DNA from: Anastatus disparis | Taxonomy: Eukaryota; Arthropoda; Insecta; Hymenoptera; Eupelmidae | Length of the DNA stretch: 64,000 nucleotides | Assembly (NCBI GenBank): GCA_017163975.1 | Contig: JAFFSR010000243.1 | Span: 1,488,001-1,552,000 of the forward strand | Direction of reading: 5' to 3' | In this document: positions 4,669 through 43,190 of the stretch, one piece after another | How the letters are laid out: every line of letters starts with the position of its first letter | Numbering within the stretch: the stretch's first letter is position 1 | Program-made: the position numbers and the translations under genes | Notes under the pieces: model-generated | Told to the model about the DNA's origin: nothing | The model's input: only the letters and a program-made list of their open reading frames with translations | The model's database searches: none

Positions 4669-5423
4669 ATGGCAGATTATGTTCGTTACGGTGTACAAAA
4701 GCTTGATAATGAAAATTAATCAACATGGAGCTATAAGGTACAGCTTCTGTTGACAAAATATGAACTATGGTCGGTGTTAAAAGAGCCCAAGCCTGCTGAT
4801 GCAAAAGACGATGGGATCAAAAAAGATGATCAAGCAAAGGCAACTATCGGTCTTTTAGTTGAAGATAATCAATTAAGGCATATAAAGAATAAGAATACAG
4901 CACATGAGCAATGGAATGCTCTAAAGGATTATCACCAAAAGTCAACGCTTTGCAGTAAGTTATTTTTATATAAGCGTATATTCCGCACAATATTAGAAAG
5001 AGATGGCAACATGGAGGACGTTACAAATTTTCTAGATTACATCGAGAAGTTATCAAAACTCGGTCAAGATTTATCTGACGATATAATCGCTTCAGTGCTG
5101 TTAGGCAGTCTTCCAGAACCATACGATACTCTCATTACGGCTTTATAGAGCAGACCCGAAAGTCACCTGACGTCAGAATTTGTTAAAACAAAATTAATTA
5201 ACGAATATGATAGACGAAAGGGGGCAAAGGATATGAGAAAAACAGCATGCAGAAAAGACAGCGCTATGAAAGTTGCACATAAGGATATCAGTGCACTTGA
5301 AAAAAGAAAATGTTTCTTTTGCAAAAGAATAGGACATTCTAAACATGAATGTTTAAAATATAAAGCATGGAAAAAGAAGCAGGAAACAGCAAATAACATA
5401 ACAGTCAGTAAAACGGATCAACA
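4669..5423 (+). pseudogene. Copia gag with zinc knuckle
   Basis: The frame opens at an ATG (MADYVRYGVQKLDN) about 120 bp after the LTR, as expected for copia Gag. Gag forms the particle and packages the RNA. The N-terminal part contains the UBN2-like region (STWSYKVQLLL, then AHEQWNALKDYHQKST). The C-terminal part has a CCHC knuckle, CFFCKRIGHSKHEC. A TAA at 4717 and a TAG at 5146 interrupt an otherwise continuous frame. In-frame continuation into protease suggests a single Gag-Pol polyprotein. Confidence 0.9.
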
Positions 5424-7074
5424 AAAAGGTTATTGTTTTATGGCGTCATCAGAAGTAATTGTTGAAAAAGCCCTCCTCGGTATCAAAGCACCAGAAGAGC
5501 ATGAAGGGTCTTGGCTTGTCGATTCAGGCGCGACTAGTCACATGGCAAATTCAACAGATTTTTTCAAAGATTTGGATTCAAATAAAACAGGATTTGTAAG
5601 GCTTGCAGATGATGATAAAGTGGCAGAGGTAAAAGGAATCGGAAAAGGAGACATAAATTGTGTTATTGAAAAGGACAAAATTTCAACAATGCATATACAG
5701 AACGTGCTTTATGTACCGAAACTAGCCTCAAATTTATTGTCGGTGAAAAAGCTTACAAAAGCGGTCATAAGCTTATATTTGAAGATGACGATTGCCTCAT
5801 TACAAAAAATGGAAAAATACAGGCCGTAGCAAAATTGTCACCAGAATTATACGAGGTGAAAACAGTAGAAAGTGCAAACATGACCAGTGAAAGTACAAGC
5901 TACACCCATAATAAAGAGTGTCAGCACATATGGCATAGACGCTTTGGCCATCGGGATCCAAGCGCAATAAAGCAATTAGTCGACAAGGAATTAGCTACAG
6001 GTATATCGATTAAGGACTGCGGTATAAGGGAAACATGCGAGCGCTGTGTAAAAGGAAAAATGGCACGTACACCTTTTCCAAAGGAATCGAAAAATAAAAC
6101 ACAGGCTATTTTAGACCTTATACATACGGATGTTTGCGGACCTATGCATACAGAAACTCCAAGCAAAAAACGGTATATTTTAACCATGATCGACGATTAT
6201 TCCAGGTATTCATTTGTATATTTTTTGAAGTATAAAAGTGAAGCAGCTACCGTCATAAAGGAATTTGTTGAAATGACAAAGACGCAGTTCAATAAAAGGC
6301 CAAAAATTATACGATCGGATCAAGGAAGGGAATATGTTAACGACGATCTTCAAAAATACTTAAAATCTGAAGGTATACGGGTACAATATACAGCAGCATA
6401 TTCACCACAGCAAAACGGAGTAGCTGAAAGGAAAAACCGATCGCTGTTAGAAATGGCTCGATGCATGTTATTAGATGCATCATTAGACAAGAAGTATTGG
6501 GCAGAAGCAGTAAATACTGCAAACTTCCTACAAAACAGATGACCTACAAAAATAAAAGCAAAAACGCCTTATGAACTATGGCATTTAGTAAAGCCAGACG
6601 TTAAGAGTTTGCATGTTTTTGGCAGTCAAGCTCTTATACATATACCCAAAGAACTAAGGAAAAAATTGGATGAAAAGGCAGAAAAATTAGTTTTTGTTGG
6701 CTATTCGGAAGAATCGAAAGCCCTTAGATTTTTGAATATAGAAACTAATCGCATACGGATAAGCCGCGATGTAGTTTTTACAGAAAATCATAGAGAAAAG
6801 AAAAAAGTTAATAAGGAAATTGAAATAACTTTAATAAAAGATAAGGCTCTGAAAAATCCTTCAGATAAAAACCAAATTGAGGTTCAAGAAATTTCTGCAA
6901 ATGAAGATAATCATCAAGAAGATCAAGAAAATCAAGAAAATAGCGATGAAACTAGTGGGTCAGAAGAATTTTTCAGTGAAAGTGAAATTGATATTCAAGA
7001 AGATTCTTCAAATGAATCAATAATTAATGATAATCAGCCGAAAGAAAATAGACGCTCTGAAAGAAATAATAGGG
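5424..7074 (+). pseudogene. Copia protease and integrase
   Basis: The protease shows WLVDSGATSHM, with the DSGA active site, near 5512. The pre-integrase zinc region (HIWHRRFGH ... CERCVKGK) begins near 5925. The integrase core has HTDVCGP, RSDQGREY and NGVAERKNR, which supply the D, D and E metal-binding residues, followed by the C-terminal VFGSQ ... VFVGYS region. One base is missing or extra near 5755, and a TGA lies at 6540-6542 just after NFLQNR. The acidic Gln/Glu/Asn-rich linker toward RT (about 6800-7050) is typical of copia Pol. Confidence 0.92.
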
Positions 7075-8678
7075 GCGTACCGCCTGACAGGTATATGGCA
7101 ACATTAAAATTGGTCAAAGAAGAAAGTGAACCACGAAGCGCGAAAGATGCGTTATCAAGACCAGATAAGGATCACTGGAAAAACGCAATGAATGAAGAAA
7201 TTGAATCTCTAAAAGAAAACAAAACATGGGAGATTGTTCCAAGATCAGAAGGCAAGGACATTATTACTTGTAAATGGGTATTTAAAACAAAAAGGAACGC
7301 CGAAGGAAATATTGAAAGATACAAAGCACGATAAGTAGCACGTGGGTTCTCGCAAAAATACGGTACGGATTATGACGAGGTTTTTGCTCCTGTCGTAAAA
7401 CAAACGACCTTTCGTACACTTTTGACAGTAGTAGGCCATAAAGGTATGATCGTCAAACATTTCGATGCGAAGACTGTATTTTTAAATGGCGAATTAAAAG
7501 AAAGCATTTATATGCAACAACCTAAAGGCTGTATTACTCAAGGCAAAGAAAAAATGGTCTGTCGGCTAAGGAAGGGTATTTATGGCTTAAAACAAGCTGC
7601 GAAAGTTTGGAATGATCAGTTTTATGATTGTTTAAAAGAATATGGTTTTTTACAAAGTAAAGCAGACTTGTGTTTATACATAAAGACTAACGGTCAAGAA
7701 AAAATCTATCTTATTGTATACGTAGATGATTTTTTAATAGCAGCCAAAGATGTAAAAAAGATAAATGAAGTAGCTGACTTTTTAAGTAAAAAATTTCAAC
7801 TCAAGGATCTAGGTGCTTTAAAGCATTATTGAGGAATGGAAGTCAGAAGAGATACAGATGGAATTTTTTACATAAAGCAATCAAAATATATAGATACAAT
7901 TCTAAAAAGATTCAGTCTACAAGATGCCAAAATTTCTAATATACCGATGGATCAAGGATATGTAAAATCAAGAGAAGATCAAGGACCTATGCCGGAAAAT
8001 GAAAAATATTAACAGTTGATTGGGGCACTGCTATATCTTTCAGTAAATACTCGACCCGATATAGCAGCTAGTATAACTATATTGAGCCAGCATAATAAAG
8101 CGGCGCCTAATATGACCGATTGCAATGAAGTAAAAAGGGTCGCCCGATACCTGAAAGGAACTAAGGATTACGAACTCCGACTAGGCAAAAAGGGCATAGC
8201 AGTTAACGCATTAATCGGTTATGCAGATGCAGATTAGGCTGAAAACCGCGTTGACAGAAAATCAAATAGCGGTTATATATTTCAACTATACGGCTCACCA
8301 ATCAGTTGAGGTTGTCGAAAACAACCTTGTGTTTCATTGTCTTCGACAGAAGCTGAGTACGTAGCGCTTGCGAAAGCGACGCAGGAAGGGATTTGGATAC
8401 GTCGCTTATTTGAAGATTTCGAAGGAACAGCGCCAGAAAAAATATTAGTTTACGAAGACAATCAAAGTTGTTTAAAGCTTATAGACCACAAGAAATTTAA
8501 TCATCGGACGAAACATATCGATACAAATATTCATTTCATAAAGGATATCAAAAATAAAGGAATAATGGAATACGAATATTGCCCAACAGCAGAAATGATT
8601 GCCGATATGTTGACTAAACCATTAGGAAGAATAAAGTTAAAGGATTTGGCAGAAAGGTGCGGTTTAATAGAAAAATGA
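7075..8678 (+). pseudogene. Copia reverse transcriptase and RNase H
   Basis: The RT domain starts near HWKNAMNEEIESL and has WVFKTKRN, then ARGFSQKYG, KHFDAKTVFLNGEL (first catalytic Asp, in the normal DVKTAFLNG position), GIYGLKQA and YVDDFLIA (the YVDD catalytic box). RNase H includes TRPDIAA, SSTEAEYVAL, LVYEDNQS and KHIDTNIHFI. Stops sit at 7332, 7830, 8010, 8235 (in place of Trp after DAD) and 8307. Between stops the domains are well preserved and stay in one frame, so the stops look recent compared with drift elsewhere in the window. Confidence 0.95.
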
Positions 8679-18799: not shown

Positions 18800-19396
18800 A
18801 AGTTTATATAAAGCATTGTTTGTTGTCGTTGAAAAAAGCTTAGAAATTCATCTTCATTGTCGCTAAAAGAAGCTTACAAATTCATCTTTATTGTCGCTAA
18901 AAAAAGTTTACAAATTTATTATTGTCGCTGAAGCGATTGTTTGTTGTCGCTAAAAAAACTTTATACAAACATATAAATTTATTGTTTATTGTCGTTAAAA
19001 AAAGCTTACAATTTTATTTTTTATAATCACTAAATGAAACTTATAAATTTATATCTCATTGTCGTTGAAAAAAGCGTACAAATTTATTGTTTACTGTCGC
19101 TAAAAAAGATTACTAATTCATTTATTATTGTTGCTGAAGCGTACAGATTTATTGTTTATTGTCACCAAAAAAAATCTAATATGAGCATACAAATTTATTG
19201 GTTGTTGTCGCTAAAAGAAGCTTACAAATTTATTACTGTCGCTGAAGCGATTGTGTTTTATCGCTAAAAAAATTGTATACAAGTTTAAAAATTTATCGTT
19301 TATTGTCGCTAAAAAAAGCTTACAAATTTATTTTTTATAATAATTAAAAGAAACTTATAAACTTATATCTCATTGTCGTTGAAAAAAGCGTACAAA
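18800..19396 (+). repeat. GTCGCTAAAAA satellite, left part
   Basis: Units of ~45-60 bp alternate TTGTCGCTAAAAAAAGCTTA with CAAATTTATTGTTTA and CTGAAGCGATTGTTTG variants. The array stops in GCGTACAAA at 19396 and resumes at 29507 with TTTATTGTTTACTG in the same orientation. The joined sequence is the normal array sequence seen, for example, at 19077-19096. Confidence 0.9.
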
Positions 19397-20990
19397 GGCT
19401 ATAGCAGAATAAGCATGGTGAATTTGCCCCCTCCTAAATGGCGTATCTAATATGGGTCACTTAAAAAGTTATCAAAAAATATTAAGAAAGCCAAAATTAC
19501 AGACCCCTAAACCCCATGTAGGAGTTATAAAGCTAAAAAACGTGATTTTTCGATTTTATTTTTTTACAGCTAGGCTCTGCATTCCAGAGACTTGTAAAAA
19601 ATCATTAAAGTAGGTTTTTCCTTTCTAAATAATTAAAATTTTTCACGAAACTCATAACCTCAAAATTGGCTCCGAAAAACCTCATTAAAATTTTAAATCA
19701 GTGTTTTTACATCCCAGATTTCGAGGCACTAAACTCAATATAGGTATTTTTTATGTATTTTTTCCTGCTCTTCACGATGCCGTCATTAGTTTACAAAAAA
19801 AAATGGTGGCACACCCAATTTTCGGCCGAAAATTGTTTCTTTTGGCTTTTTTACGGGGTTTTAAGCTTTAATAATGAAATAAATTACTATATTATGGCTC
19901 AAAATAACACTTTTTCTGTATTTTTCTACTTTCTGTTGAGTTCTGAAATCAGATTGAAGATATTTTCAGCTGAACACGCTATCCTACGCTCAGAAACGGT
20001 TTTTCGTGGGGTTATTTAAAGATTTTGTTGTGTGATTTGGCATCTGAGAGATTTGGAAAGACATATTTTGATAATACATACATGTTCTTCACAACTGTAT
20101 ACTCAGATTTCCAATATTTTCATCCATAAACCATGAAAATTTACCAAAATTTAATTTTTTTGAGGTTATGTAATAATTTCATTTGATTATATTTCATTTA
20201 AATAGCTTAAGGTGGCTCAAGCGCTTGGTGCCGTATCAAGCGGGGCCCTGTCTGCGACATCAAAATGTTTTTATTGATAAAGCTATTATAACTAATTAAA
20301 TAGTATTATTGATTATTCCTTATGATAAGAAAACAATTTTAAGTAATCAAAAGTAATAAAAAAGAAAGAAAATTTTTTGTTTTGTTTCTCATTACAAGTT
20401 TTACTATGGTACGTCCCTGCTGTTTTGTTGGTTTTGAGCACTCTGAACGCACGTTAGCTTTACGTATGGCGTCTGTATCTGACGCGCATGCGCAGAAGCT
20501 GCCATTATGTGTAGCAAATTCTATTTCGCATTCTTTTAGATTTATTTTCTCTTGTATTTCTTCGTCAAGTCCTTTTTTTCTTCTTGAAAAATGATCTCCG
20601 TGAAACAAACTATAAGTGTATAATTTTTATTTTAACTTGTACTTTTTTATATTACCGTAAAACCTAATTTATGATTCAGTCCCATAAGAGCACATGTATT
20701 ATTTACAATTATTAAAACATCTTTTTCTTTAAAAATAGTTCGTCAACCTCTATTTTTCAAAATAAATATCGAAATATTACGATATAAAGAATATTTTAAT
20801 ACAAATTTTTGATAGTTTCACTTTTTTAGAAAAAATCGCTTGAGCCACCTTAAATAACAAATATTAGTATTTTTTATGACTTTCAACTATTTTGTCTTAT
20901 TAGATTTACGATATTTTCATTTACACGCTCCAGTATTTGCCAAAAACTGATTTTAGTTTAAGTTTATGCACAAATTGTATTGACTTATGT
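19397..20990 (+). repeat. Left long terminal inverted repeat
   Basis: It matches 28556-29506 in reverse complement except for scattered substitutions and the inserted MITE at 20211-20849. An open frame of ~88-105 codons (19753-20019, and its counterpart 28885-29202) survives in both arms because the arms are nearly identical. Its residues (F/W-rich) and AT bias do not suggest a real protein. Confidence 0.9.
20211..20849. mobile_element. TTAA-flanked MITE inside the left arm
   Basis: A 639 bp insert with ends GGTGGCTCAAGCG and CGCTTGAGCCACC is flanked by TTAA (20207-20210 and 20850-20853). The matching site in the opposite arm (28694-28697) has a single TTAA and no insert, which proves the insertion and its duplication. 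TTAA duplication is the rule for piggyBac transposases. An ~80-codon frame on either strand near 20380-20608 is not recognised and may be incidental. Confidence 0.9.
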
Positions 20991-20995
20991 TAGAA

Positions 20996-21167
20996 GGTCG
21001 GATAGGCCGTTTTCGTGATGCTAAAAAAAAGCGTTAGTTATACCCCTCATAAGGCAGGCGGAGCTATAGTTTCCAAATTCGCGCTTAAGGAGAACATAGC
21101 GCCACCTTCCTCATAGGGGGTATAACTAGCCCTTTTTCTGAGCATCACGAAAATGGCCGATCCAACC
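20996..21167. mobile_element. Short palindromic MITE
   Basis: GGTCGGATAGGCCGTTTTCG and GATGCT at the left, AGCATCACGAAAATGGCC and GATCCAACC at the right. Inner arms include TTAGTTATACCC-like and GGGTATAACTAG blocks. It starts directly at the inner edge of the 951 bp arm. Confidence 0.75.
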
Positions 21168-21947
21168 GACTATAGCTAAAAATAAATTATTCTACATTCC
21201 CTGCTTATGTTATATTTTAAGCCATAATTTTAAAATAGATCACTTTTTCATACCAGTGGCATTTGATGTTTCAATGAATTTCGCAATCTCCGGACTTGTT
21301 TGATAGAGTTGTAAAAAAATAATAAAACCAGCATTGCTTTACTTAGAAAATATTAATTTAATTCTTAATTCATTTAATGAGGTATGAAAAAATGTCGCTG
21401 AAATAAGTTATCGAAAAAGCAAAGTTGATAAAATGATGTCCATATAAAATAGAGTTAAAGCAATATTGAGAGAAAATAAGTTAGCAAAACTAGTTTCTAT
21501 ATGAGTACACAATTCTGTATAATTATTTATTTTTTTTACTTTAGATACTTAAATATATAATATTTCATAATGAATGATTCATATTCTTTATATGTCTTTT
21601 CTACCCATGTGCCACCTATTAACACGTCATGTAAGTATTACCCAGTTTGGATACAGCTGGGATTATGAACGACCTTTCTTTCTTACGCCGTCCTTGAAAA
21701 TGACGTGACTTCCTTAGGGTTGAATTCATGAACATTCTTTGAGTATGAGCTGTTACTTGAATTTTTAAAGTTTGGAACTTTACAGATTCCAGATTTCAAA
21801 ACAAGTATATATACTTGAAAATCGTAACTTTATATACTCAAGTGATGCTTGTAAATTCGGACCTAAGCTAGCTTTGACCCGTATTGTTTGCATTAGTGAG
21901 TAACTGTTTTAGGATCAAATTAATGGACCCAACTCAAATAACACTTG
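21168..21947. other. No recognised feature
   Basis: AT-rich sequence. I see no frame or repeat of note apart from a possible worn relative of the 22089 element near 21840. Confidence 0.5.
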
Positions 21948-21950
21948 TTA

Positions 21951-22085
21951 GGGCCTTTGCACGATAAAAAAATAACGCGAGAAAATAGGAATATGAGGGA
22001 ATAAGGTGGACATAAGGGTACTTATGCACCAATTATTCCTCTTATGCTTGTTAGGTCCATGGACATAGACAGCTTGCAAAGGCCC
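21951..22085. mobile_element. TTA-flanked MITE 1
   Basis: 135 bp with ends GGGCCTTTGCA and TGCAAAGGCCC, flanked by TTA (21948-21950 and 22086-22088). A 3 bp TWA duplication fits PIF/Harbinger-type (Tourist-like) elements. Its right TTA is also the left TTA of the next element. Confidence 0.7.
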
Positions 22086-22088
22086 TTA

Positions 22089-22276
22089 GGCTCGAATTTA
22101 TAGTCGACACTTAATACTCAGCACTCGGATTTCAACCTCAGATCTCAAAGTTTTATTGTTCTGTGTTCCCTATAAAGCATGTCTACGATTATAGGGAACA
22201 CGGAACGATGGACCTTTGAGATCTGAGGGTTGAGATCCGAGTACTGAGTGTTGAGTGTCGACTATAAATTCGAGCC
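22089..22276. mobile_element. TTA-flanked MITE 2
   Basis: 188 bp with ~60 bp arms: GGCTCGAATTTATAGTCGAC on the left and its complement ending CGAGCC on the right, then TTA (22277-22279). The arms share ACACTTAATACTCAGCAC and CAGATCTCAAAG-like blocks. A diverged half-copy lies near 16640-16670. Confidence 0.8.
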
Positions 22277-22440
22277 TTACTCATACCTCATTCTGTCTTT
22301 ATCTGTCTCATGATAAGAAAAAATACAGATATAACCATTACTTAAATGTTTTTAAATTCGAATCTTAAAACAGAAAATTTGTAACGGATAGGATTTTACT
22401 GTTAGGATGCCAGATGCTTCAGCGATCCAGGATTCAGGAT

Positions 22441-22980
22441 TTAAGAGGCGGTCGGAACCATTTGCCGCTTGGTGGCGCTGCGGTCAGGTGAGAGAAAAAT
22501 ATAAAATATTTTTTATATAGCAATTTAAAATTTACTGAAACAATAATATACTCTTAATCTTGTCATTTCCTCTAGCCATATATATGTAGAATAATTATTA
22601 ATATTAATTTTGTTTGAAAAGTCTAAAATATTGTTATAAAGCGAAAAATGCGGCGCGAGGTAGAGTCGACGTAAACATTAGCATACATCATTCTTTAGTA
22701 TTGCTCTCTCTGTCGCACTAAGGGAAGGTGCACGCATGTTTACATCGGTCCTACGTTGCATCGCATTTTTCGCTTTATAACAATATTTCAGACTTTTCAA
22801 ACAAGATAAGTATTAATAATTATTCTACATATAGATGGCTAGAGGAAATGACAACATTAAAAGTATATTGTCGTCTCAGAAAATTGTAAATAGCTGTATA
22901 AAAAATATTTAATAGATTTCTCTCACCTGACCGCAGCGCCACCCTATATGTAGCGGCGAATAGACCCGACCGCCTCTTAA
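22441..22980. mobile_element. TTAA-type foldback element, 540 bp
   Basis: TTAAGAGGCGGTCGG at the left and CCGACCGCCTCTTAA at the right. The arms run ~230 bp each and share GGTGGCGCTGCGGTCAGGTG, TTGTCATTTCCTCTAGCCAT and TTGTTATAAAGCGAAAAATG with their complements. The terminal GAGGCGGTC is close to the GAGGAGGTC of the other TTAA foldbacks, but the interior is unrelated to them. Confidence 0.88.
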
Positions 22981-23250
22981 GGTTTATTCAAATAAGAAAA
23001 ATAATAAATTAATTTAACTACAAATATATTCTTAAATAAAATAATAAAATACAAAAGCAAATATAACAGTAGTTATTTGTATTCGCGAGTCAGCAATCTG
23101 AAACAAATGAAAAATGACGTTCTTAGTTTTCCAATAATTAAACTAATATGGGTTTTGAAATAAACTTAAAACCTAACTAGCGGTATTAAATTTAAGATTT
23201 CGTGAAAGCGCAAACATAATTCTAGAAGGTGCAAAAACCCTTAATTGCCT
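22981..23250. other. AT-rich spacer
   Basis: No gene or clear repeat seen before the motif array that follows. Confidence 0.4.
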
Positions 23251-23745
23251 CCCGACCACGAGCGATCCCATAATACATAGTGGAATTACTGGTTGCCAAG
23301 ATAAATTCGTTTTGCAATCACGTGTAATCACCAGACTACAACCCGACCTAACTTAGTGCAAGAAGGATGTCTTTAACTGAGACTCTCATACGACCACGAG
23401 CAATTCCCTGGACCGCATAACAGTCTTCGGTTATTCTTATATTATCATATAGTCACGTGCAATCACCTGTACCATATGGCAATACTTCCAGACAGGAAGG
23501 ACGGAAATCTAAGTTACCTCACGCATGAGCAGTCCCATGTACTATGATGCAACGATAGACTTGTACTGTACCACCTGCTCCACAATAACGTGCGATCACA
23601 TTTATTATAAAATAGGTTTAACAGCTTCCCTAGGAATTGATTTTGGTCGAAATCATATATCACCAAGTGTGATCCCTTAGCGATGAATATCTCGACCTAT
23701 TGTATTAATTCCCAATAATACTACGTGCGATCACATGAGTATTAT
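23250..23745 (+). repeat. Degenerate ~66 bp array with CACGTGCGATCAC motif
   Basis: Eight variants of a short motif recur every 57-77 bp: CACGAGCGATCCCAT (23257), CACGTGTAATCACCAG (23320), CACGAGCAATTCCCTG (23395), CACGTGCAATCACCTG (23454), ACGCATGAGCAGTCCC (23521), AACGTGCGATCACATT (23587), CAAGTGTGATCCCTTA (23663) and TACGTGCGATCACATG (23722). DNA between motifs is poorly conserved. It lies ~850 bp upstream of the transposase start. Confidence 0.65.
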
Positions 23746-23909
23746 CCGGAATGAATACCCGGAAGACCTCGGAGCAGGACTGACTCACTTTGGTTCACGG
23801 CGCTGCTTATATACGCCTGGTTCGCCATATTCCACTATATTCCTCAGGAACAAGCGAACCTATCCCTACTCTATTACTTTGAACGCTTGGTCTAAGGAAT
23901 TGGACTCAA

Positions 23910-23910
<1 letters not shown>

Positions 23911-23980
<70 letters not shown>
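23911..23980. repeat. (CT)n(TA)n microsatellite
   Basis: A CTCTCT run passes into a long TATATA run. It creates a false L/S/Y-rich reading frame. Confidence 0.95.
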
Positions 23981-23983
<3 letters not shown>

Positions 23984-24597
23984 TACGCATACTCTATGAC
24001 TAACTATATACAATATGAATGATGCTTAAAAAATACTTATACTATTATATTTGATAGCAGACGCATTCTGCTACAAACCATTAAATAATTCGAAATAAAT
24101 CATTTTGTTTTGATTGTTGAAGTTTGTGATGTATATTAATGTGAGTATGATAAAACTTTTTATCAAATAGAAATATCTTTATAACCTATTAAAAAAATGT
24201 AATTTAAAAAATCATTATTAATATTTCTATTGCAGAAAACAGTCATACGTATTCCGACACATAAACATTTTAAATTGTCATGGAAATAGTGGAAAAATTA
24301 TTATTGGTATTGTTATTATACTTTTACTGACTTAGATATGTAATATCCTAAAACATCTGTTTTGCATCAGAATTTATGTGCACATAATCTACTTCATAAG
24401 ATTATATACAATATTCATTGGCTTGTTACAATATTTATATTGAAAGTTTTAGTAATAATATATATTATATATATTCTTAATTGAATCGATAATCATCCAT
24501 TGATGGTGTATAAAATATTATTAATGTAAAGTTTTCAAAGATTAACAATTGATTTTTAAACATTTCTTTTTATGAATTTTATGGAATATTAATAGAT

Positions 24598-27001
24598 ATG
24601 GCATCTTCTAATGAAAATAATGTCACAAATACAAGGCAGCGAGATGATAGGAAATACGCTATGTGTACTATTCATTTACGAAAAACTAGTGGTCAGAAGA
24701 AAATTATTAGTACAGAAATTGAATTGGAATACGCTAAGCAATTGTCAAATATAGAAAATATTAACATCAATGATGTAGTATGTAAATAATGTAGAATCCG
24801 AATGATAAAAGATATGTCACGCTATAACAATATCAATCCTGGTAATACCTCAGAAAATATTTCATCTCAAGAATCATGTTCTAGTACCTGTTCTCAGCTT
24901 AGTACAAGTGGATTATCAGAGTCATTGTCGTATAAAGTAGTTGAAAAAGAAGAACCTAAAACTGTAGAATTATCTATTAAAAGGACAATTGCAACTCATA
25001 AATATTGTTTTACTTGTGGATTCCAAAAACAAAGTAATCTTATTTTAGTGCCTTTAACTGCTCGAGTTCAAACATTCAGTAGAATTAATTTATTTATACC
25101 AAAGGGTAATAGGTGCTATCGTGACCATTTGACTCGAAAAAAAATTTTTGAAGAAGACTTGAATAAGATAAAAATTTTTTCTAACACGAGTGTAATAGAG
25201 GTTACAGAATTACCTGAATTCCTTAATGAAATGTCTGCAAGGGCAAATGAAACTTTGTTAGATAAGACAGCTGATTTTGATATGCCTGAAAAGAAATTAA
25301 AAATATTAACAGGATTAAATTGGGAGAATATTATGAAACAACGAGAGCGGCTTACTTCTCTTAGAAATTCTAATGTAAGAACAGTAACTCAAGCCATAAT
25401 TATATTTTTATTTAAAATGCGCATCGATATCGAAAAAGAACAACAAATATCTGATATTTGTCATTCAGTATTAGTGTCTTTTGAAAATGAAGCGTATAGC
25501 TGCAAAAGTAGTTATCTCCAAAAAATTTTTTTCAAGAAATAACATTTTCTGCTGTACTTATACTTAAAAGTTAGTGTATTTTGCAATACACCATATTTTT
25601 TTCATTTCATAAAAAAAGACTATACCTATATTTTGGTCCTATATGATTTTTTCATGATAAATTTTAATGTTCTGTATACAAAAATGCAATAAAAATGAAT
25701 TCGGAAATAATGGAGATAGCCACCTTTGCAGCTACACGCTTCAAATGATGTATTACTGAATTACTTTGGATTAAAGAATGCTGATAGGGATTACTTGATT
25801 CAAAATGAAACTTCCCAAATGGCAAAACTTTTGCAACCAGGAAAAAAACTTATTTTGATTTGTGATGGAACATACATCAGACACGAAATAAGCTCAAACA
25901 ATGAATATCAAAGAAAATCTTTTTCAGGTCAAAAAAAAGTTCCTTTATTAAAACCATTTACAATTTGTACCAATAATGGCTACGTTATTGATCAGTTAGG
26001 ACCATATCTTGCTAACATGAATGATGCCAGTATTTTAATGAAAATATTAGAAACAGAAAAAGAAGTTTTAACTAAATTGCTTCACAAAGGTGATATTTTC
26101 GTATTGGATAGAGGATTTTGAGATATAAAAAAAAAATAGAAGATATGGGTTTTACTGTTTTGATGCCAGCACTTGAAGGTAAAAAATCACAACTCTCAAC
26201 AGAAGAATCAAATGAAACTCGATTTACAACAAAATTAAGATGGGTTGTAGAAGCAATAGATGGGATTGAAAAGAAAAAAAAAACAAATTATTAGATCGTA
26301 AACTTGATAACAAAATGTTAAAAGATACTGGATCTTACTGTCAAATTGCTTGCTATTTAAATAATTCATTTGGAGTGCGTCTAGATTCTGATAAAGATGT
26401 GCAAGATAAAATATTTAACATCATGCAATCTAAGAAAGAAACTGTAAATACATTAGCAGAGGAAGTAGCTGCAGAAAGGTGGAGCCGTCGAAAACTACCA
26501 TTTGTTACCGTGACTTCAAGTGATTTACCAGATTTTCCTGAATTAACGAAGAAAGACTTAAAAATTCTTTCTACAGGGTCATACCAGCTTAAAGAGAGCA
26601 TATCCTATTTAGCAGAGATATTGGACTCGGATGACAATTTAAAAATAGGGTATGTTAAAGAAAGATCAAATATTCTCAAACTCGAAGTACAATCGAGACA
26701 TGTAAACAGGAAACAATATAAATGTTTCATTCAGTGTCAACCTAATGGCATTGGCTATTCAAGCATTATTAGATATTATTGTGATTGTGCTAATGGTAAG
26801 CGCACTATTGGATGTTGTGCACACATTGCAGCAATTATTTATTACCTTTCTCACGGAAGATACTTATCAAAAATTATAAAACCAGCTGAAATTCTTTCTA
26901 ATATGTTTCTTAAAGATCAAATAGAAGTTTGCATAAATGAAGACAGCGATGAAGATGAATTAAATTGCTTTAATTCTGGGAATAACTATTATTTTTTATG
27001 A
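24598..27001 (+). pseudogene. DDE transposase with SWIM finger, broken
   Basis: The first frame (ATG at 24598, MASSNENNVTNTRQ) covers an N-terminal domain with CFTCGFQ and a basic middle region. The catalytic core follows: LILICDGTYIRHE (first Asp), then KPFTICTNNGYVIDQLGPYL, and FVLDRGF (second Asp). The C-terminal part has RWVVEAIDG, then GSYCQIACYLNN, and a SWIM finger, YYCDCANGKRTIGCCAHIA (CxC...CxH). This is the DDE_Tnp_4 type, related to PIF/Harbinger and ISL2EU. Breaks: TAA at 24787, a damaged stretch at 25540-25725, TGA at 26119 in place of Arg after DRGF, and two frameshifts in A runs (about 26130 and 26285). The third catalytic acid cannot be placed with confidence. Confidence 0.85.
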
Positions 27002-27119
27002 ATATTTACTTCATGAACAATCTTCAATATTTATAATTATTTTTAATAAAGTGAAAAATAATATTTTATTTCAAAGATTTTCATTTGACTTTCACATTTT
27101 AATATTATAATAAAAATTT

Positions 27120-27569
27120 CATAAATGACTATTTGAAGCGTCTCACAACATACGCGGCTAAGTCACAACCAACGCATTTTGAGAAAAATGCAAAAAACCT
27201 TTATCTTTTAAATGATTCTAAATCGCTTGTTAACCAATATACTATTGACTTCACCGATAAAAAATAAGATTTTTGCACATGTTTCGAAAACTCTAAATTG
27301 ATTTTTTAAAGAGAAAAATAATTTTTTAATATGGACTTAGCTAACTTTAATGTGGCTATGGACTTGGCTAGTTTTGAAAAAAAAAATTGAAGGACTTGAC
27401 TGATTTTGATGCAAAATCGGGACTCAGTTATTTTTTATTCAAAAATATTATCCGAACTTAGCAATTTTAGATTTGTAATTTATAGATTTGTCAAATAATA
27501 TAACATAATGTCGAAGCGTCTCACAACAAAAATGAAGTCCATTTTTTTCAAAAATTAAATTATGAAGTC
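27120..27569. repeat. Short direct repeats around GAAGCGTCTCACAAC
   Basis: GAAGCGTCTCACAACATACG (about 27136) and GAAGCGTCTCACAACAAAAA (about 27513) flank a segment with repeated GGACTT(A/G)GCTA-type phrases. No coding content. Confidence 0.5.
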
Positions 27570-28140
27570 ATTTATATTTTCTATCCTATTTTCTACTATA
27601 TTTAATCTTACTATATTAAATTATATATTTACTATATTTAATCCTATTTTTTAATATATTTATTTCTTTTTATAGTAATAAATTCGCAAGGTATATACAC
27701 GATGAAACTTAAGCTTTTAAATTTGATTTTTCAATTTTTTTTTCGTACATCAAAAAACTGCTGCAAATCGAAAAAACGCTAAAGTTTATTCTTGGAAGAT
27801 CGCTGAACATTATTAACAAACATAGACGTACACTCATAAATACGCGTTTATTATTTATAAATAACACATGGTATATTATTATTGCATATGCTTACGAGTG
27901 TGTATTTGTGAGCGTATTATGTTTATGTGTAAGTATATGCGTGTGTATATTCATAAAAATGCACATGTACTCTATTCTTAAAATTAAAATTGGACTTGAC
28001 CATTTTTGATAAGCAAGTTCAATGGACTTAGCGCTTTTTTGATTTGCAGCAGTTTTTTGACATACCAAAAAAATTGAAAAATCAAATTTTTAAAAAATTT
28101 TATAATTAAATATAGTAGAAAATAGGCTAAAAAATATGCT
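27570..28140. mobile_element. Imperfect inverted repeat, possible MITE
   Basis: CTATTTTCTACTATATTTAA and TTTTCAATTTTTTTT ... CAAAAAACTGCTGCAAATCG on the left reappear as complements near 28030-28140. The arms are ~90 bp and more, around a ~230 bp centre with TG-rich sequence. The ends are not sharp. Confidence 0.5.
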
Positions 28141-28555
28141 TTACTTAATAACTCAATTTAAAAAAAAAATGGGCTTGGTCATTTTTGTTGCTCAAGGCTT
28201 TATTTGTCGCTAATCTTGAGTTTTTGTCTTGAGTTACATTTAACATTTTTTTATAATTTATTATATTATACACTACGCAAACTATGAAAATGAGAAAATT
28301 ACTTTTTCTACCAATTCTGTTATAAACTTTATTTAAATAAAAAGTTGCGGTGTTTGAAAAAATGATATTTAAGAAATGATTTAAGTACACTTAAGAGTAA
28401 CTGTTTTCAACTTAGTAAGAATAACATAACTTAGTAAAAGCATTACATTTTCTGAAAATACTATGTTAAGCGCGCATCGCAATATATTGAAAATATGATT
28501 GAAAAATGGTAACATAAAAAAAACTAAAAACCGTTGTTTTAAGCTTTTTAAATGT

Positions 28556-29506
28556 AGTATAAGTTAATACAATTTGTACATAAACTTAAACTAAAATCAG
28601 TTTTTGGCAAATACTGGAACGTGTAAATGAAAATATTGTAAATCTAATAAGACAAAATAATAGAAAGTCATAAAAAATACTGATATTTGTTATTTAAGTT
28701 ATTTAAATAAAATATAATCAAATGAAATTATTACATAACCTCAAAAAAATTAGATTTTGGTAAATTTTCATGGTTTATGGATTAAAATATTGCAAATCTG
28801 AGTATACAGTTGTAAAGAACATATATGGATTATCAAAATATGTCTTTCTAAATCTTTCAGATGCCAAATCACGCAACAAAATCTTTAAATAACCCCACGA
28901 AAAACCGTTTCTGAGCGTAGGATAGCGTGTTCAGCTGAAAATATCTTCAATCTGATTTCAGAACTCAACTGAAAGTAGAAAAATACAGAAAAAGTGTTAT
29001 TTTGAGCCATAATATAGTAATTTATTTCATTATTAAAGCTTAAAACCCCGTAAAAAAGCCAAAAGAAACAATTTTCGGCCGAAAATTGGGTGTGCCACCA
29101 TTTTTTTTTGTAAACTAATGATGGCATCGTGAAGAGCAGGAAAAAATACATAAAAATACCTATATTGAGTTTAGTGCCTCGAAATCTGGGATGTAAAAAC
29201 ACTGATTTAAAATTTTAATGAGGTTTTTCGGAGCCAATTTTGAGGTTATGAGTTTCGTGAAAAATTTTAATTATTTAGAAAGGAAAAACCTACTTTAATG
29301 ATTTTTTACAAGTCTCTGGAATACAGAGCCTAGCTGTAAAAAAATAAAATCGAAAAATCACGTTTTTTAGCTTTATAACTCCTACATGGGGTTTAGGGGT
29401 CTGTAATTTTGGCTTTCTTAATATTTTTTTATAAGCTTTTAAGTGACCTATATCAGATACGCCATTTGGGAGGGGGCAAATTCACCATGCTTATTCTGCT
29501 ATAGCC
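28556..29506 (-). repeat. Right long terminal inverted repeat
   Basis: 951 bp, the reverse complement of 19397-20990 without the MITE. It keeps the empty TTAA at 28694-28697. It ends ATTCTGCTATAGCC, directly followed by TTTATTGTTTACTG of the satellite. Confidence 0.9.
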
Positions 29507-32030
29507 TTTATTGTTTACTGTCGTTAAAAATGATTACAAATTCATTTATTATTATCGCTGAAGCGATTGTTTGTTGTCGCTAAAAAAATTTCAAACAAGC
29601 ATATAAATTTATTGTTTAACATCGCTAAAAAAAGCTTACAAATTTATTTGTCATAATCGCTAAAAGAAACTTACAAATCTATATCTCATTGTTGTTGAAA
29701 AAAGCGTATAGATTTATTGTTTATTGTCGCTAAAAAAGATTACAAATACATTTATTATTGTCGCTGAAGCGTACAGATTTATTGTTTGTTGTCACCAAAA
29801 AAATCTCATATAAGCATACAAATTTATTGTTTGTTGTCGCTAAAAGAAGCTTGCAAATTCATCTTTATTGTCAATGAAGTTATTCAATTACAAATTCATC
29901 TTTATTGTCAATGAATAGTAATGGGCTATGCTGACAGACATTTGAGGGGGAGCTGAGGGGGGGGGGCGGTTGAATTTTGTCTCACGACTATATATAGATA
30001 GATAAATTTTATGCAAGTATATAAATTTATTGTTTATTGTCGCTAAAAAAGCTTACAAATTTATTTTTCATAATAATCAAAAGAAACTTATAAATTTATA
30101 TCTCATTGTCGTTGAAAAAAGCGTACAAATTTAGTGTTTACTGTCGTTAAAAAGGATTACAAATTCATTTATTATTGTTGCTGAAGCGTACAGATCTATT
30201 GTTCGTTGTTACTAAGAATACCTCATATGAGAATACAAATTTATTGTTTGTTGTCGCTAAAAGAAGCTTACCAATTCATCTTTATTGTCGCTAATAAAAT
30301 CTTATAAATTTATTATTGTCGCTGAAGCGATTGTTTGTTGTCGCTAAAAAATTTTATACAAGCATATAAATTTATTGTTTATTGTCGCTAAATAAAGCTT
30401 ACAAATTTATTTTTCATAATCGCTGAAACAAACTTATAAATTTATATCTCATTGTTGTTGAAAAAAGCGTACGAATTTATTGTTTACTGTCGCTAAAAAA
30501 TATTACAAATTCATTTATTATTGTTGTTGAAGCGTACAGATCTATTGTTTGTTGTCACTAAAAAAATTTAATATGAGCATACAAATTCATTAGTTGTCGT
30601 TAAAAGAAGCTTACAAATTTATTTTTGCTGTCGCTAAAAAAAGCGTACAAATTTAGTGTTTATTGTCGCTAAAAAAAGATTATAAAAGCGTACAAATTTA
30701 TTATTTGTTGTCGCTAAAAGAAGCTTACAAAATCATTTTCATTGTCGATAAAAAAAGGTTACATATTTATTCTTCATAATTGCTAAAAGAAACTTATAAA
30801 TTTATATTTTATTGTCGCTGAAAAAAGCGTACAAATTTATTGTTTAGTGTCGTTAAAAAAGATTACAAATACATTTATTATTGTCGCTGAAGCGTACAGA
30901 TTTATTGTTTGTTGTCACCAAAAAAATCTCATATAAGCATACAAATTTATTGTTTGTTGTCGCTAAAAGAAGCTTGCAAATTCATCTTTATTGTCAATGA
31001 AGTTATTCAATTACAAATTCATCTTTATTGTCAATGAATAGTAATGGGCTATGCTGACAGACATTTGAGGGGGAGCTGAGGGGGGCGGTTGAATTTTGTC
31101 TCACGACTATATATAGATAGATAAATTTTATGCAAGTATATAAATTTATTGTTTATTGTCGCTAAAAAAGCTTACAAATTTATTTTTCATAATAATCAAA
31201 AGAAACTTATAAATTTATATCTCATTGTCGTTGAAAAAAGCGTACAAATTTAGTGTTTACTGTCGTTAAAAAGGATTACAAATTCATTTATTATTGTTGC
31301 TGAAGCGTACAGATCTATTGTTCGTTGTTACTAAGAATACCTCATATGAGAATACAAATTTATTGTTTGTTGTCGCTAAAAGAAGCTTACCAATTCATCT
31401 TTATTGTCGCTAATAAAATCTTATAAATTTATTATTGTCGCTGAAGCGATTGTTTGTTGTCGCTAAAAAATTTTATACAAGCATATAAATTTATTGTTTA
31501 TTGTCGCTAAATAAAGCTTACAAATTTATTTTTCATAATCGCTGAAACAAACTTATAAATTTATATCTCATTGTTGTTGAAAAAAGCGTACGAATTTATT
31601 GTTTACTGTCGCTAAAAAATATTACAAATTCATTTATTATTGTTGTTGAAGCGTACAGATCTATTGTTTGTTGTCACTAAAAAAATTTAATATGAGCATA
31701 CAAATTCATTAGTTGTCGTTAAAAGAAGCTTACAAATTTATTTTTGCTGTCGCTAAAAAAAGCGTACAAATTTAGTGTTTATTGTCGCTAAAAAAAGATT
31801 ATAAAAGCGTACAAATTTATTATTTGTTGTCGCTAAAAGAAGCTTACAAAATCATTTTCATTGTCGATAAAAAAAGGTTACATATTTATTCTTCATAATT
31901 GCTAAAAGAAACTTATAAATTTATATTTTATTGTCGCTGAAAAAAGCGTACAAATTTATTGTTTAGTGTCGTTAAAAAATATGTATATCTGTTTTTACTA
32001 TTTTTAAAAATAGTTTACAAATTTATTTTT
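29507..32030 (+). repeat. GTCGCTAAAAA satellite, right part, with 1.12 kb duplication
   Basis: The array continues in the orientation of 18800-19396. A ~1.12 kb segment (about 29732-30854) is repeated directly at about 30855-31976. The copies look identical apart from a G run (10 versus 6 G). Each copy includes one short G-rich insert related to 17880-18245. The array fades near 32030-32170. Confidence 0.9.
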
Positions 32031-32273
32031 ATTGTCGTTGAAAAAAGCATACAGATTTATATTATTTTAAAAATTACAGTTTTCTTTTTTTATTGTTGCT
32101 AAAATTAATTTTATAAACTACTTTTAAACTATCGCTGAAAAAATTTATAAATTCATAAAAATAAAATATATTGTCATTAACAAAATATGAAAAATTATTA
32201 TTGTTATTACATGTAAATATTTTGATTTTTATTTTTTGAAACATTTTAAAGGTGTATATAAATAATTATCATT

Positions 32274-32850: not shown

Positions 32851-34174
32851 TCAAACAATATTTAATATTTCATATTTATTTTCAGATTCATTTTGTATGT
32901 ATATTTTGTTAGGATTTTTACATCTCGACAGTGCAACGTAAAGCTGTCCATGCGAAAATAAAGGTCTTTTAATAAATAATCCAATCTCATCAAAACTTTG
33001 ACCTTGAGATTTGTTAATAGTCATAGCAAAAGCTAATGTTACAGGAAATTGTTTTCTATAAAGTATATAGAGTAAAGACGATGATTCACCAGTATTTAAT
33101 GTTATTCTTGAAATAAAATTTTTATTTCCAATTTTTTCTCCAGTAATGATTTCAGCTTCAAGATTATATTTATATAATTTTATAATTTTTAATTTTGTTC
33201 CATTACATAAACCTACGGCAATACTTGAATTTCTTATTAATATAACTATAGCATTAACTTTTAATTCCAATATGTGTGGTGGTAACCTTCTTTTATTTTA
33301 TTAAGGGTTTCTATTGGATAATTCAATTCGATATTATCATCATTTTGATCGACTCCTTTATGAGTAGCATAATCTATGCTATAATAAGTTGTCGATTCGC
33401 CGTCAAGTGATTTTAATATTCTTTTATTTAAATTATTTATGTCATCGTTATGAGCTGCTAATATTACTCGATTTATGTTGTCATTATTATCAATGTTTTT
33501 ATATATTTTTAAACAAATATCATTAGTTTTCCATTTATCAGGAATTTGAAATGATTCAATTTGACCTTCACCTATTTGTAATGATAAAGAATTAAATGAT
33601 TTATTATTGCAGCGGATATTTTTATTTAATTTTTTAATTTTAAATAACGGCCATAAAAAAGATTGTTTTAAACTATTTTGTACTATTATATCTTTAAAAC
33701 TATTTTTTATAACAGGAAGTATTCGGCGAAAATCACCTCCTAAAATTATTAATTTATCACCAAATGGTAAATCATTACAACATGAATCTTGTAAAGTTTT
33801 ATTAACAGTTTCCAAAGCTTTTTATGATATCATTGAAGCTTCGTCCCATATAATAATAACTGCATCTCTTAATTTTTTTTGTCACTTTCTAATTTAAAGA
33901 ATGTGATGTCTACATTATTTAAATCTAAAGGTAATCTAAAAGATCTGTGACCTGTCATTCCTTTAGGTAATAAAATTGATGCAATTCCAGTCCATGCTAT
34001 TGATAATACTTTTTTACATTTGTAAAAAAAATAATAAATTAATTTTTTATTCAAAAATATTTTTCCAGTACCACCTGGTCCATCAATAAAATATAATTTA
34101 GAGGAATATTTTATTATGTCGTCAAAAATAAATTTTTGATCTTGATTTAATAATAAATACATTTCGTTAAACAT
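32851..34174 (-). pseudogene. Helitron Pif1-like helicase
   Basis: Reads, on the minus strand, FIDGPGGTGKIF (Walker A, with Ile after the Lys), IIIWDEASM (Walker B), GGDFRRILPV (motif III, Arg where Gln is usual), then LAFAMTINKSQGQSFDE and GQLYVALSRC (motifs V/VI). The helicase unwinds DNA during rolling-circle transposition. It is separated from the upstream Rep frame only by one TAA (34184-34186), so Rep and helicase were one protein. Further breaks: a frameshift in an 8-base T run (33873-33880), a stop at 33822-33824, and a frameshift near 33285. Confidence 0.92.
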
Positions 34175-34183
34175 ATGTTTATT

Positions 34184-36120
34184 TTATTCAATAATTTTTG
34201 AATTTTCTTCCTGATTTTCATGGATAATTTTTTCTATTGGTTCTGGTGAACTAAAATTTTTACAAGACATTTCTTCTGTCAATAAAATTTTATTAATTTT
34301 ATTTAATGCTTTATTTTCTTTATCATCTTCAAAATCTTCACTAAAATATTCTTTAAATTTATTCCATATTTCATCACCGTGAATATTTTCTGATAAAAGT
34401 AACCATGCAAAATATTGACGCAACTGACTCGGTAGCATAATGGTATAAGCTTCAGAAAATATATCAAATATTTGCGAAGAACTTTCTATTAACCTCATTG
34501 CAGCTGCTGTTTCTTTAAAAGTATTATACGTTATGTTTTCGAAAGTTCTTAATTCTGTAAATGAAGTTATGCCTTTAACACGATTTAAAATTAATTTTAA
34601 ATGGAATCTTTTAGTATCTTTAGGAGACACAATATTTAATCTTCCAATAGCTTTATGTTTTTTATCACGAGTACGTTTGATCCAACATTTATCTTTATTG
34701 AATACGTAATATTTAGGTATATTACTGTATTTTATTTGTTTTGCAAACTCATCTTTAATATTAAGATTAAACCATGCAGTTAATGTTGTTTTCCATTTGT
34801 CTAAAGCTTTTGATTCTTTATTTTCTTCGAATATAATTTTTTGCTGATTTTCCGTATGAACAGCTAATCTAACAACTGTATGACTTCTTCCACATATCAG
34901 AAATTCAGATAATCTCCAAGCTGCTTCCATAGGACTCATATATCTTCCATCTTTAAATTGTGTAATTTCATCATAAGTCTCTTTTTCGTCTTTATCATCA
35001 TTTTTTTTTATTTTACAAAAAGCTTTATCTCCACCTTTATGAATATAATTATAAACATATTTTATACTGTGTATAGTGGCACATATTTCAAAATTTATAT
35101 GACACAAATATTTTCTGAGTAAATAACTATCGTGAGGTACAACCATTGAATTATCTACTGGAATAATTTGTTTATCATTTTTAATTTTATAACAATGATT
35201 TTCTTCTGAATTATTTATTCGTTTATATTCTGGAAATCCATTTTTTTGAATAATAGTATTATTAACAAAATTTTTTGGATATTTTTTTGTACAAGTATTT
35301 TTATTTTTATCGTAACATGGTGAATTATTGTTATGTGGTCCATGCAACATGTGTTTAATTACTAAATTTTGTAATTCCTTGTCATCACTATTTGGAATTT
35401 CAGCTGAAACATATTTATCTATTTTTTCTTGAGTTATTAATTTATCATCAGAGTGCAGCGTTATAAGAATATGAGCATGTGGTAAACCTCTTTTTTGAAA
35501 TTCAATTGTGTATACACAAGCAATAACTTTACCAAAAATATTTTTTTTAACGATATCATCAAGTAATTTATTAAATTTAGTATAAAATAATCTAACTGTT
35601 ATATTAGGGATATCATTAGGAGTAGTACCTGCTGGAAATTTTTTTAAAACTCTTTTTAATTCTTTCCACCCTAGATTACAAGTCATAGTAATAAAAATGT
35701 CAGGTCTACCAACCTCTCTATAAATGGCCATTGCATCTTGATAATGTCGTTGCATATATTTAGGACTTCCTATATAAGTTGATGGCAATATAAATAGATT
35801 ACCTATTTTTTCTTTTTTCTCAAAATTATTTGATATATTACAAGCGCTATTTAATACATGGTCTAATAAGCCTTGATAACATTTAATTCTCAATTGTCTT
35901 TGATTATTTCTTAGAAAATTCATTCTATTATTTTCAATTTGAATTGCAACATGTAGAAAATATTGTTGCGTTAATCGTCCACAATATAGTAAAGGATTAA
36001 AATTAATAGAATCTGGCCTATAAGCCAATCTATATAAATAATGTTGTAACATCGTTAAATTTTCTAAAAATTTAGGACTTTGAATATGACCAATACTCCA
36101 ACCTAAGTCCCCAGATGTAT
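34184..36120 (-). pseudogene. Helitron Rep endonuclease
   Basis: A 622-codon open frame from ATG at 36052; the same frame extends ~25 codons upstream without a start. It holds the Helitron N-terminal domain (CGRLTQQYFLHVAIQIENNR), the HUH nuclease motif in RGLPHAHILITL, and the two-tyrosine region in IKYVYNYIHKGGDKA (YxxxY, with Asn where Lys is common). Rep nicks and joins single-stranded DNA. Domains that normally precede this part of the protein are missing, so it is 5' truncated. The frame itself is intact for 1.87 kb, the longest in the window. Confidence 0.92.
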
Positions 36121-36429
36121 TGTTCTATTACTCTATTTTTTATTATTCGCTAATAATTTTTATTAAATATTATTATATACAATCATAACTTGAAATTTTA
36201 ATGTTATTTACTATTCTATTTTTAATTTATTTCAAAAATATATAAGTTTGATTCATTGTACACTTTTGAATATCGCGTTAAACCATCTTTTTTTTATTAA
36301 TTCTAATTTTATAACTTCATATCTTATATTTTTATGTATCGATGTTTTCTATTGAACTTTTTTCACATTCACAAATATGAAATTTCAACTCATTATGTCC
36401 TACTCCTCTATTTACTTTGGAATGTGTGT

Positions 36430-41724: not shown

Positions 41725-42004
41725 CATAGTTGATAAATCAGAAGAAAAAAATTAAAATAAATACTCAGATAGAGATGGAAAAATTTTAAAAACAGAAACA
41801 AAATATTTATAAAACAATGTTTTTACAGAAACAAGTATTTAATAAACAAACATTTATGACAGAAAAGTATCATCGTGACAAACTTATTATAGACAATGCG
41901 CATACATCATATTTACTAAGAGAATAGCATGAGGAATACAAATATTAGTCAAATAATACAACGATATCTTTCAACTAGAAGGAAATAATGCATCATCGCT
42001 CAAG

Positions 42005-43190
42005 AATATGTATCATTGTATAAATTTAACAATAAATCAACCAATTGTTTCAAAATTATATCGACATCCATTATCGTTACATAAGGAAATAGACAGACAA
42101 ATAATAAAATTTGAAAATAAAGGTATTGTGACAAAGTCAAATTCGCCTTTCGTATCACCCGTTTGGTGTGTTCCAAAGAAAAGAATGGATACATCAGAAA
42201 TACAAAAATATAGAATCGTAATAGACTTTGGAAAATCAAATGAATATACACTTCAAGAAAATTACCCATTGCCGTCAATAAATGAAATCCATGACCAATT
42301 GGGAGATATGAGATACTTTTCAGCATTTAACTTGGTCTTAGGTTTTTATCGAGTACTGGTTTTACCAGAACACAGCAAGCGTACTGTTTACTCGTATAAG
42401 GCATTGGAAATTTCAACAAATGCCAATGGGTCTTAAAAACGCACCTACTATATTTCAAAAGATAATAAATTTAAAATTACAAGGGTTAATAGGCACTATA
42501 TATTTCGTATATTTAGATGACATTATAATATACTCAAAAACCTTTGAAGAACATTTAAAGAACTTACAGGTATTATTTGATGGACTTAGATCTGCAGGCT
42601 TAAAACTGCAAGCCGATAATGCGAGTATGTAAAACCAAAAATAGAATACTTAGGACATCTCATCACAGAGAAAGGAGTGTATCCTAACCCAAATAAATTA
42701 GAATGTATAAGAAATTAGAAACAATCTTCCAATTAAAAGCAAATCAGACTATTTCTAAGATTATGTGGATATTATAAGAAATATATTAAAAATTACGGTA
42801 AAATCGCAGGACCTCTTAACAAATTAATGAGTAAAAATGACACGTTCAACTTTGATGATAAATGCAAAAAAGCATTTAAAATATTAAAGGAGAAAATAAA
42901 ATCATCGCTTACATCGAAATACCCTAATTTGGAAGAGATGTTCATACTGATAACAGATGCAAGCAGGTGATTACAAGAAAGGAAAAAATTTACCATGCAC
43001 CGATGCTTCAAGAACACTCAATCAAACTGAAAAGAATTATACAACCATCAAAAAGGAATTATTAGCGGCTGTATGGTCAATGCGAAATTTAAGACATTTT
43101 TTATATGAAAAACTTTTTATTTTAATAACAGATCATACACTATTAGCAGATCTCATAAAATCAAAATAACCAGAAATTGGATCTAGAATT
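42005..43190 (+). pseudogene. Gypsy reverse transcriptase and RNase H
   Basis: The RT runs from KEIDRQIIKFENKGIVTKS through VWCVPKKRMD and YRIVIDFGKSNEYT to MPMGLKNAPTIFQKI and FVYLDDIIIYSKT, with the YLDD catalytic box. The usual first catalytic Asp position reads FSAFNLV, so it is lost. RNase H traces include LITDASR, KKELLAAVWS and ITDHTLLADL. At least four frameshifts or stops separate the pieces. Confidence 0.9.

Follow-up and report, generated by a model that had tools for sequence, protein, structure and literature searches.

A stretch of 64,000 nucleotides from the parasitoid wasp Anastatus disparis (assembly GCA_017163975.1, contig JAFFSR010000243.1, positions 1,488,001 to 1,552,000; the whole stretch is called the window below) contains an element of 10,110 bp at window positions 19397-29506, which we identify with good confidence as a DNA transposon in decay, likely an outsized member of the cut-and-paste Spy group (PHIS superfamily). 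The element is inserted between AAA and TTT, without any duplication of its target, and contains the broken gene of a transposase with a DDE domain. Unlike most cut-and-paste transposons, Spy elements leave their target unduplicated. Spy is the most likely placement, judged by published criteria rather than by a tree that includes labelled Spy proteins.

The element starts with GGCTATAGCAGAATAAGC at 19397 and ends with the inverse of it at 29506, splitting a satellite of ~35-bp units at AAA|TTT, so that sequence and flank alignment place one target half-site on each side (AAA at 19394-19396 and TTT at 29507-29509). When the two flanks were joined, they aligned ungapped to the satellite at 18963-19141 (179 columns, 91% identity), an empty-site paralogue with AAATTT unbroken at the junction. 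The same join matched the satellite at 30011-30188 and 31130-31307 with 93% identity, again with AAATTT at the junction and with a single 1-base gap about 85 columns before it. Moreover, a 20-base phrase spanning the junction, GCGTACAAATTTATTGTTTA, is intact in the satellite at 19074, 30827 and 31946. As the uninterrupted phrase persists nearby, no target base was gained or lost at the window site, in agreement with the preliminary description of this DNA. More diverged satellite stretches deviate at the junction (for example GAATTT within 30356-30595), which is ordinary satellite variation.

Both ends of the element are long terminal inverted repeats (arms). The left arm is divided into an outer part of 814 bp (19397-20210, + strand) and an inner part (20850-20994, + strand) by an insert, while the right arm is unbroken over 954 bp (28553-29506, - strand). 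After skipping the insert, the arms align over 954 columns, with 97.4% identity for the outer 814 bp and 95.0% for the inner 140 bp, so the 951 bp given previously was right to within 3 bp. An internal inverted repeat of ~190 bp (22088-22277) was found by alignment in another copy of the element, C223, as well.

The previous arm estimate had subtracted a single later miniature inverted-repeat transposable element (MITE); comparison with C223 brings the number of later insertions to three. The first is MITE-like, 639 bp long (20211-20849, ends GGTGGCTCAAGCG / CGCTTGAGCCACC), bordered by TTAA at 20207-20210 and 20850-20853, and missing from both the right arm and C223. The second, also MITE-like, has an inverted-repeat structure of 532 bp (22445-22976), is bordered by TTAA at 22441-22444 and 22977-22980, and is missing from C223, as is the third, of 258 bp, inside the transposase gene (25485-25742). 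The first two are thus different MITE-like elements nested in the Spy-like one, and their shared TTAA borders may point to piggyBac-type mobilisation. Insert and residue coordinates within the window are hand counts made on the sequence and the alignment. Without the three insertions the window element measures ~8.67 kb, by comparison with a C223 sequence that is itself incomplete (the outer 280 bp on its left are absent from the sequence used, and the stretch examined did not yield a right arm). The length of 10.1 kb is therefore partly secondary, since C223 lacks all three insertions, and an uninterrupted copy is ~8.7 kb long, composed of 954-bp arms, a left interior of ~3.1 kb, a transposase gene of ~712 codons and a right interior of ~1.5 kb.

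Frame reading and alignment to C223 and to copies of a sister subfamily (see below) delimit the transposase pseudogene at 24598-27001 (+ strand). Its lesions comprise an in-frame stop at 24787-24789, a 33-bp loss at 25423/25424, the third insertion, a further stop at 26119-26121, frame shifts in runs of A, and loss of the stop codon at which the genes of C223 and the sister copies end. With these lesions in its gene, and two MITE-like inserts besides, the window copy is very likely dead.

To place this copy within its family, the genome assembly (939 Mb) was searched. The exact 24-base element end occurs 167 times (83 + 84 by strand) and its reversed control not at all, which makes chance repetition untenable. 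AAA precedes 161 of these ends, where base composition predicts ~4.7%. Both ends were read in seven copies, counting the window's own: each has the layout AAA|element|TTT, and none shows direct repeats of 2-12 bp, as the absence of duplication in the preliminary description would lead one to expect. Five more single ends agree with this layout. An arm query gave 300 candidate places; the 40 that were scored, among them the window's own two, share 97-100% identity.

Ends were then paired by hand from 100 listed of the 167, yielding 30 facing pairs with spans from 517 to 26,370 bp, those longer than ~20 kb being perhaps not true partners. Against these we set 43 of the 68 listed transposase rows, all from the element's own subfamily; rows from the sister subfamily, from the window itself and for second pieces of a gene already represented were left out, and the window pair was added to the count afterwards. 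A scored transposase match is enclosed in 11 of the 30 pairs, the window's included, and in seven of those 11 the gene match begins 4.0-5.2 kb from its upstream end; arms and transposase do go together in the genome. The preliminary description had recognised that arms occurring alone at many loci would speak for an accidental pairing, that is, unrelated inverted repeats lying around a transposase fossil in a repeat-rich stretch. Such a pattern is partly seen, as 19 of the 30 pairs, some of just 0.5-6 kb, are without a scored transposase, in a search that scored 62 among 1,964 transposase candidates. Nevertheless, the similar position of the gene in seven of the 11 pairs that do enclose it, the AAA and TTT kept on both sides in 7/7 copies, and the same layout in a sister copy leave accidental pairing a negligible probability, and this family-wide layout rules it out. 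Short end pairs without a scored transposase are what non-autonomous copies look like. The shortest derivative, L067 (G000:C205:3809104-3809620), is 517 bp long and consists of arm sequence only (87 bp + ~426 bp) between AAA and TTT; it is a MITE of the Spy-like family, which comprises large, shortened and MITE-like forms.

Empty sites were also found outside the satellite. Copy C135 interrupts a Pif1-type helicase gene, and its joined flanks can be read in a single open frame that contains the Pif1_2B domain in full (E 1.1e-19). Of 40 scored matches to these joined flanks, 38 span the junction at 96-98% identity, 35 of them equal in length to the query stretch and three shorter by 1-3 bases; the three empty paralogues examined align over 220 columns without a gap. 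The alignment of insertion sites with empty counterparts that the preliminary description had proposed is gapless for the satellite stretch 18963-19141 and for three C135 paralogues. A further copy, C275, lies in a gene that is Helitron-like by eye, in whose short pieces Pfam finds nothing, and its two empty paralogues are one base off, which shows no duplication, yet is not exact. The window has Helitron-like sequence of its own at 33261-36124 (- strand), where Rep/helicase fragments can be recognised by eye in frames of 646 and 186 aa; the larger of these frames resembles the gene split by C275 elsewhere.

A sister subfamily shares this organisation. C350, the one copy of it in which both ends were read, is ~7.17 kb long with 667-bp arms and lies between AAA and TTT, and its protein is 68% identical to that of C223. 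The exact end of this subfamily occurs 156 times in the genome (control, 0). In blastn comparisons between elements of the two subfamilies nothing aligned beyond the gene. A (TA)n tract stands upstream of the transposase gene in both: a repeat scan places it at 23927-23983 in the window, and C350 has one too (L051:3950-4000 with L029:1-81).

The transposase is encoded by a single open reading frame (ORF) of 712 and 715 aa in the two open genes examined from this genome. As the preliminary description had stated, its catalytic part is of the DDE type: the window piece 25726-26118 matches DDE_Tnp_4 with E 4.5e-6, and both open ORFs exceed the Pfam cut-off for this domain, typical of PHIS enzymes. 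Putative catalytic residues were located in an alignment of 71 sequences (the two own-genome proteins plus 69 of 120 listed homologues, mostly near full length). On the + strand of the window and in sister-protein numbering, they are a first Asp (CDGTY, D351; 25864-25866), conserved in at least 90% of sequences, and a second Asp (LDRGF, D432; 26107-26109) and a Glu (RWVVE, E480; 26250-26252), both invariant. Upstream, residues 269-306 of the sister protein give a weak match to HTH_Tnp_4 (E 0.0036, 17.3 bits against a cut-off of 27) and form helices in the structure model. Most named relatives among the 120 listed in a protein search are from Hymenoptera. A sequence search of the Protein Data Bank gave nothing convincing (best E 0.081), and among relatives in viral contigs none of 43 pattern matches was confirmed.

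A second gene was sought in the left interior (~3.1 kb in both subfamilies), and none was recognised in a scan of single unspliced frames of the sister copy. Apart from the transposase, the sister element has no stop-to-stop frame longer than 108 aa, and Pfam scans of 10 of the 11 other frames of at least 50 aa listed for its left interior gave none above cut-off, the best being Hjc (E 0.0066, 16.8 versus 21.1 bits).

These data bear on whether the element could belong to ISL2EU, the sister group of Spy, whose members have a DDE_Tnp_4 enzyme, target A|AT|T with a 2-bp AT duplication, and encode a THAP domain as well as YqaJ in a further ORF, with ends usually beginning in GG (PMC4482050). The superfamily is shared: the profile of the Spy-like enzymes matches that of seven DDE_Tnp_4 proteins from the same genome with 98.9% probability across 268 columns, those seven bearing D[RK]GF where the Spy-like enzyme bears DRGF, and the element ends begin with GG as well. 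However, neither AT nor any other 2-12-bp repeat is present at the seven sites read at both ends, the flanks are AAA and TTT with AAATTT at empty sites, THAP is matched in none of 12 scanned proteins, and the sister element has no second ORF above 108 aa and no visible YqaJ ORF in its left interior. ISL2EU identity is very unlikely on these grounds, the missing duplication being what rules it out. PIF/Harbinger elements belong to the same superfamily and reach arms of 1,042 bp, but they have a TWA duplication, absent here at 7/7 sites, and in most cases a second ORF with Myb/SANT (PMC4482050).

Outside this superfamily, the long arms and a CxC...CxH motif following the catalytic core recall a Mutator-like element. 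Long inverted repeats are common in Mutator-like elements (MULEs), which make 8-11-bp duplications. Their catalytic domain is a different one, and no Pfam MULE domain was found in the two own-genome proteins or in ten out of ten homologues, all of which are DDE_Tnp_4; no 8-11-bp duplication exists at any of the seven sites either. The catalytic domain and the target together rule out a Mutator-like origin, whose probability we regard as slight in the extreme, and the element remains best read as Spy-like.

The motif in question is a SWIM-type CxCx9CxH (CDCANGKRTIGCCAH) at 26780-26824 (+ strand), with C656, C658, C668 and H670 invariant in the 71 aligned sequences. The preliminary description had named it a SWIM finger and thought it unusual. 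The motif is indeed there, but the Pfam SWIM profile matches the C-terminal piece of the window only weakly (E 0.11, 12.6 bits against a cut-off of 19.6), and it is not special to this element, since 114 of the 120 listed homologues have it. The six listed homologues without it (P0106, P0108, P0109, P0113, P0116 and P0117) lie outside the 71-sequence alignment, whose invariance therefore applies to a selected set. Seven of the 12 scanned proteins have a listed Pfam SWIM match, and one of these, P0092, attains the cut-off of 19.6 bits; UniProt labels one relative a SWIM-type domain-containing protein. None of the seven other DDE_Tnp_4 enzymes from this genome shows the motif; these were chosen from 150 listed matches and read as single open frames, a reading that would overlook any C-terminal part encoded by another exon. 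SWIM zinc fingers occur in MULE-derived proteins (a passage of PMC8616336). The word SWIM does not occur in the main texts of PMC4482050 and PMC11304231, and the founding description of 2014 may say more. Among the papers listed in our literature searches, no title or abstract reports SWIM for Spy, and the relevant passages of two papers pairing 'swim' with Spy or ISL2EU concern MULE-derived proteins and the name of a fish virus.

The hallmarks of Spy are insertion between AAA and TTT, zero duplication, a single ORF of ~700 aa and a DDE core (PMC4482050, PMC11304231). All of these, with a DDE core of PHIS type, are shared by the element described here. One homologue, moreover, comes from the flea Ctenocephalides felis, a reported carrier of Spy (PMC11304231), and has the whole architecture, SWIM-type motif included. 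cgSpy of Colletes gigas, whose transposase is known to be active, also resembles our element by description in its long arms, single ORF and lack of duplication, with shorter arms (467 bp) than ours, and ~60% of its insertions in human cells were at AAWTT (PMC11304231).

Several observations weigh against this placement or blur it. For intact Spy elements the published lengths are 1,165-5,910 bp overall and 5-691 bp for the arms (PMC11304231), and our element exceeds both ranges with ~8.67 kb and 954 bp; the sister copy exceeds the first (~7.17 kb) while its 667-bp arms stay within the second. The size and arm length singled out in the preliminary description thus do lie beyond what is published for Spy, even though 10.1 kb was an inflated figure and 954-bp arms are no record for PHIS given those of PIF/Harbinger. 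Among the Spy carriers given in PMC11304231, C. felis alone was named in two protein searches (120 rows each, mostly nameless); one of them, started from the flea homologue, added no further named carrier, which lowers our confidence in Spy slightly. The Pfam matches to SWIM and to the helix-turn-helix are both below cut-off in the sister protein and unlisted for that of C223. Six of the 167 exact ends are without AAA (the two inspected have CAA and GAA), the two empty paralogues of C275 differ from its joined flanks by one base in a run beside the site, and the 19 pairs without scored transposase mentioned above belong here as well. The excess in size and arms, with a SWIM-type motif that the two main texts do not mention for Spy, would fit a distinct PHIS group that lost its target duplication independently. 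We consider such a group very unlikely: Spy itself is marked by AAATTT, the lack of any duplication and one ORF of ~700 aa, and the flea homologue combines the whole architecture, motif included, with a reported Spy carrier.

For the Spy-like element, these features are compatible with the following route of transposition. The transposase probably binds the long arms through two Cys/His clusters near its N terminus, the weakly matched helix-turn-helix and the SWIM-type motif near its C terminus. It would then excise the element, its predicted RNase H-fold DDE core cutting and joining the DNA. Target DNA would be cut flush in the middle of the AAATTT palindrome, which is the best explanation for the missing duplication: with both strands joined at the same position, no single-strand gap would be left to fill. 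Copies of the shortened and MITE-like forms would depend on transposase supplied in trans. As a bolder and rather doubtful proposal, the Spy lineage may be marked by an architecture undescribed for it and serving very long arms: a DDE core that cuts flush, with two zinc-type Cys/His clusters on its N-terminal side and a SWIM finger on its C-terminal side. The SWIM extension would then be what enables a PHIS enzyme to grip AAATTT and make the flush cut, with zero-duplication insertion in elements of up to ~9 kb as the outcome. The conserved, predicted C-terminal zinc finger is in any case a candidate part for flush target cutting and the most useful lead from this work. An active Spy element has been proposed as a gene-transfer tool (PMC11304231). 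The family described here widens the known range of size and arms, and offers two related subfamilies, each with more than 150 exact ends, as well as usable empty sites.

Other repeats are present in the window. Consecutive frames at 5149-7832 (+ strand) make up the coding region of a Copia-type retrotransposon, with zinc knuckle, integrase and reverse transcriptase motifs recognised by eye, and a gypsy-like reverse transcriptase fragment was seen, also by eye, at 41957-42436 (+ strand). Finally, in the satellite at 30004-32060 the repeat finder returned identical rows from 30004 and 31123, 1,119 bp apart, which suggests a recent tandem duplication of ~1.1 kb.

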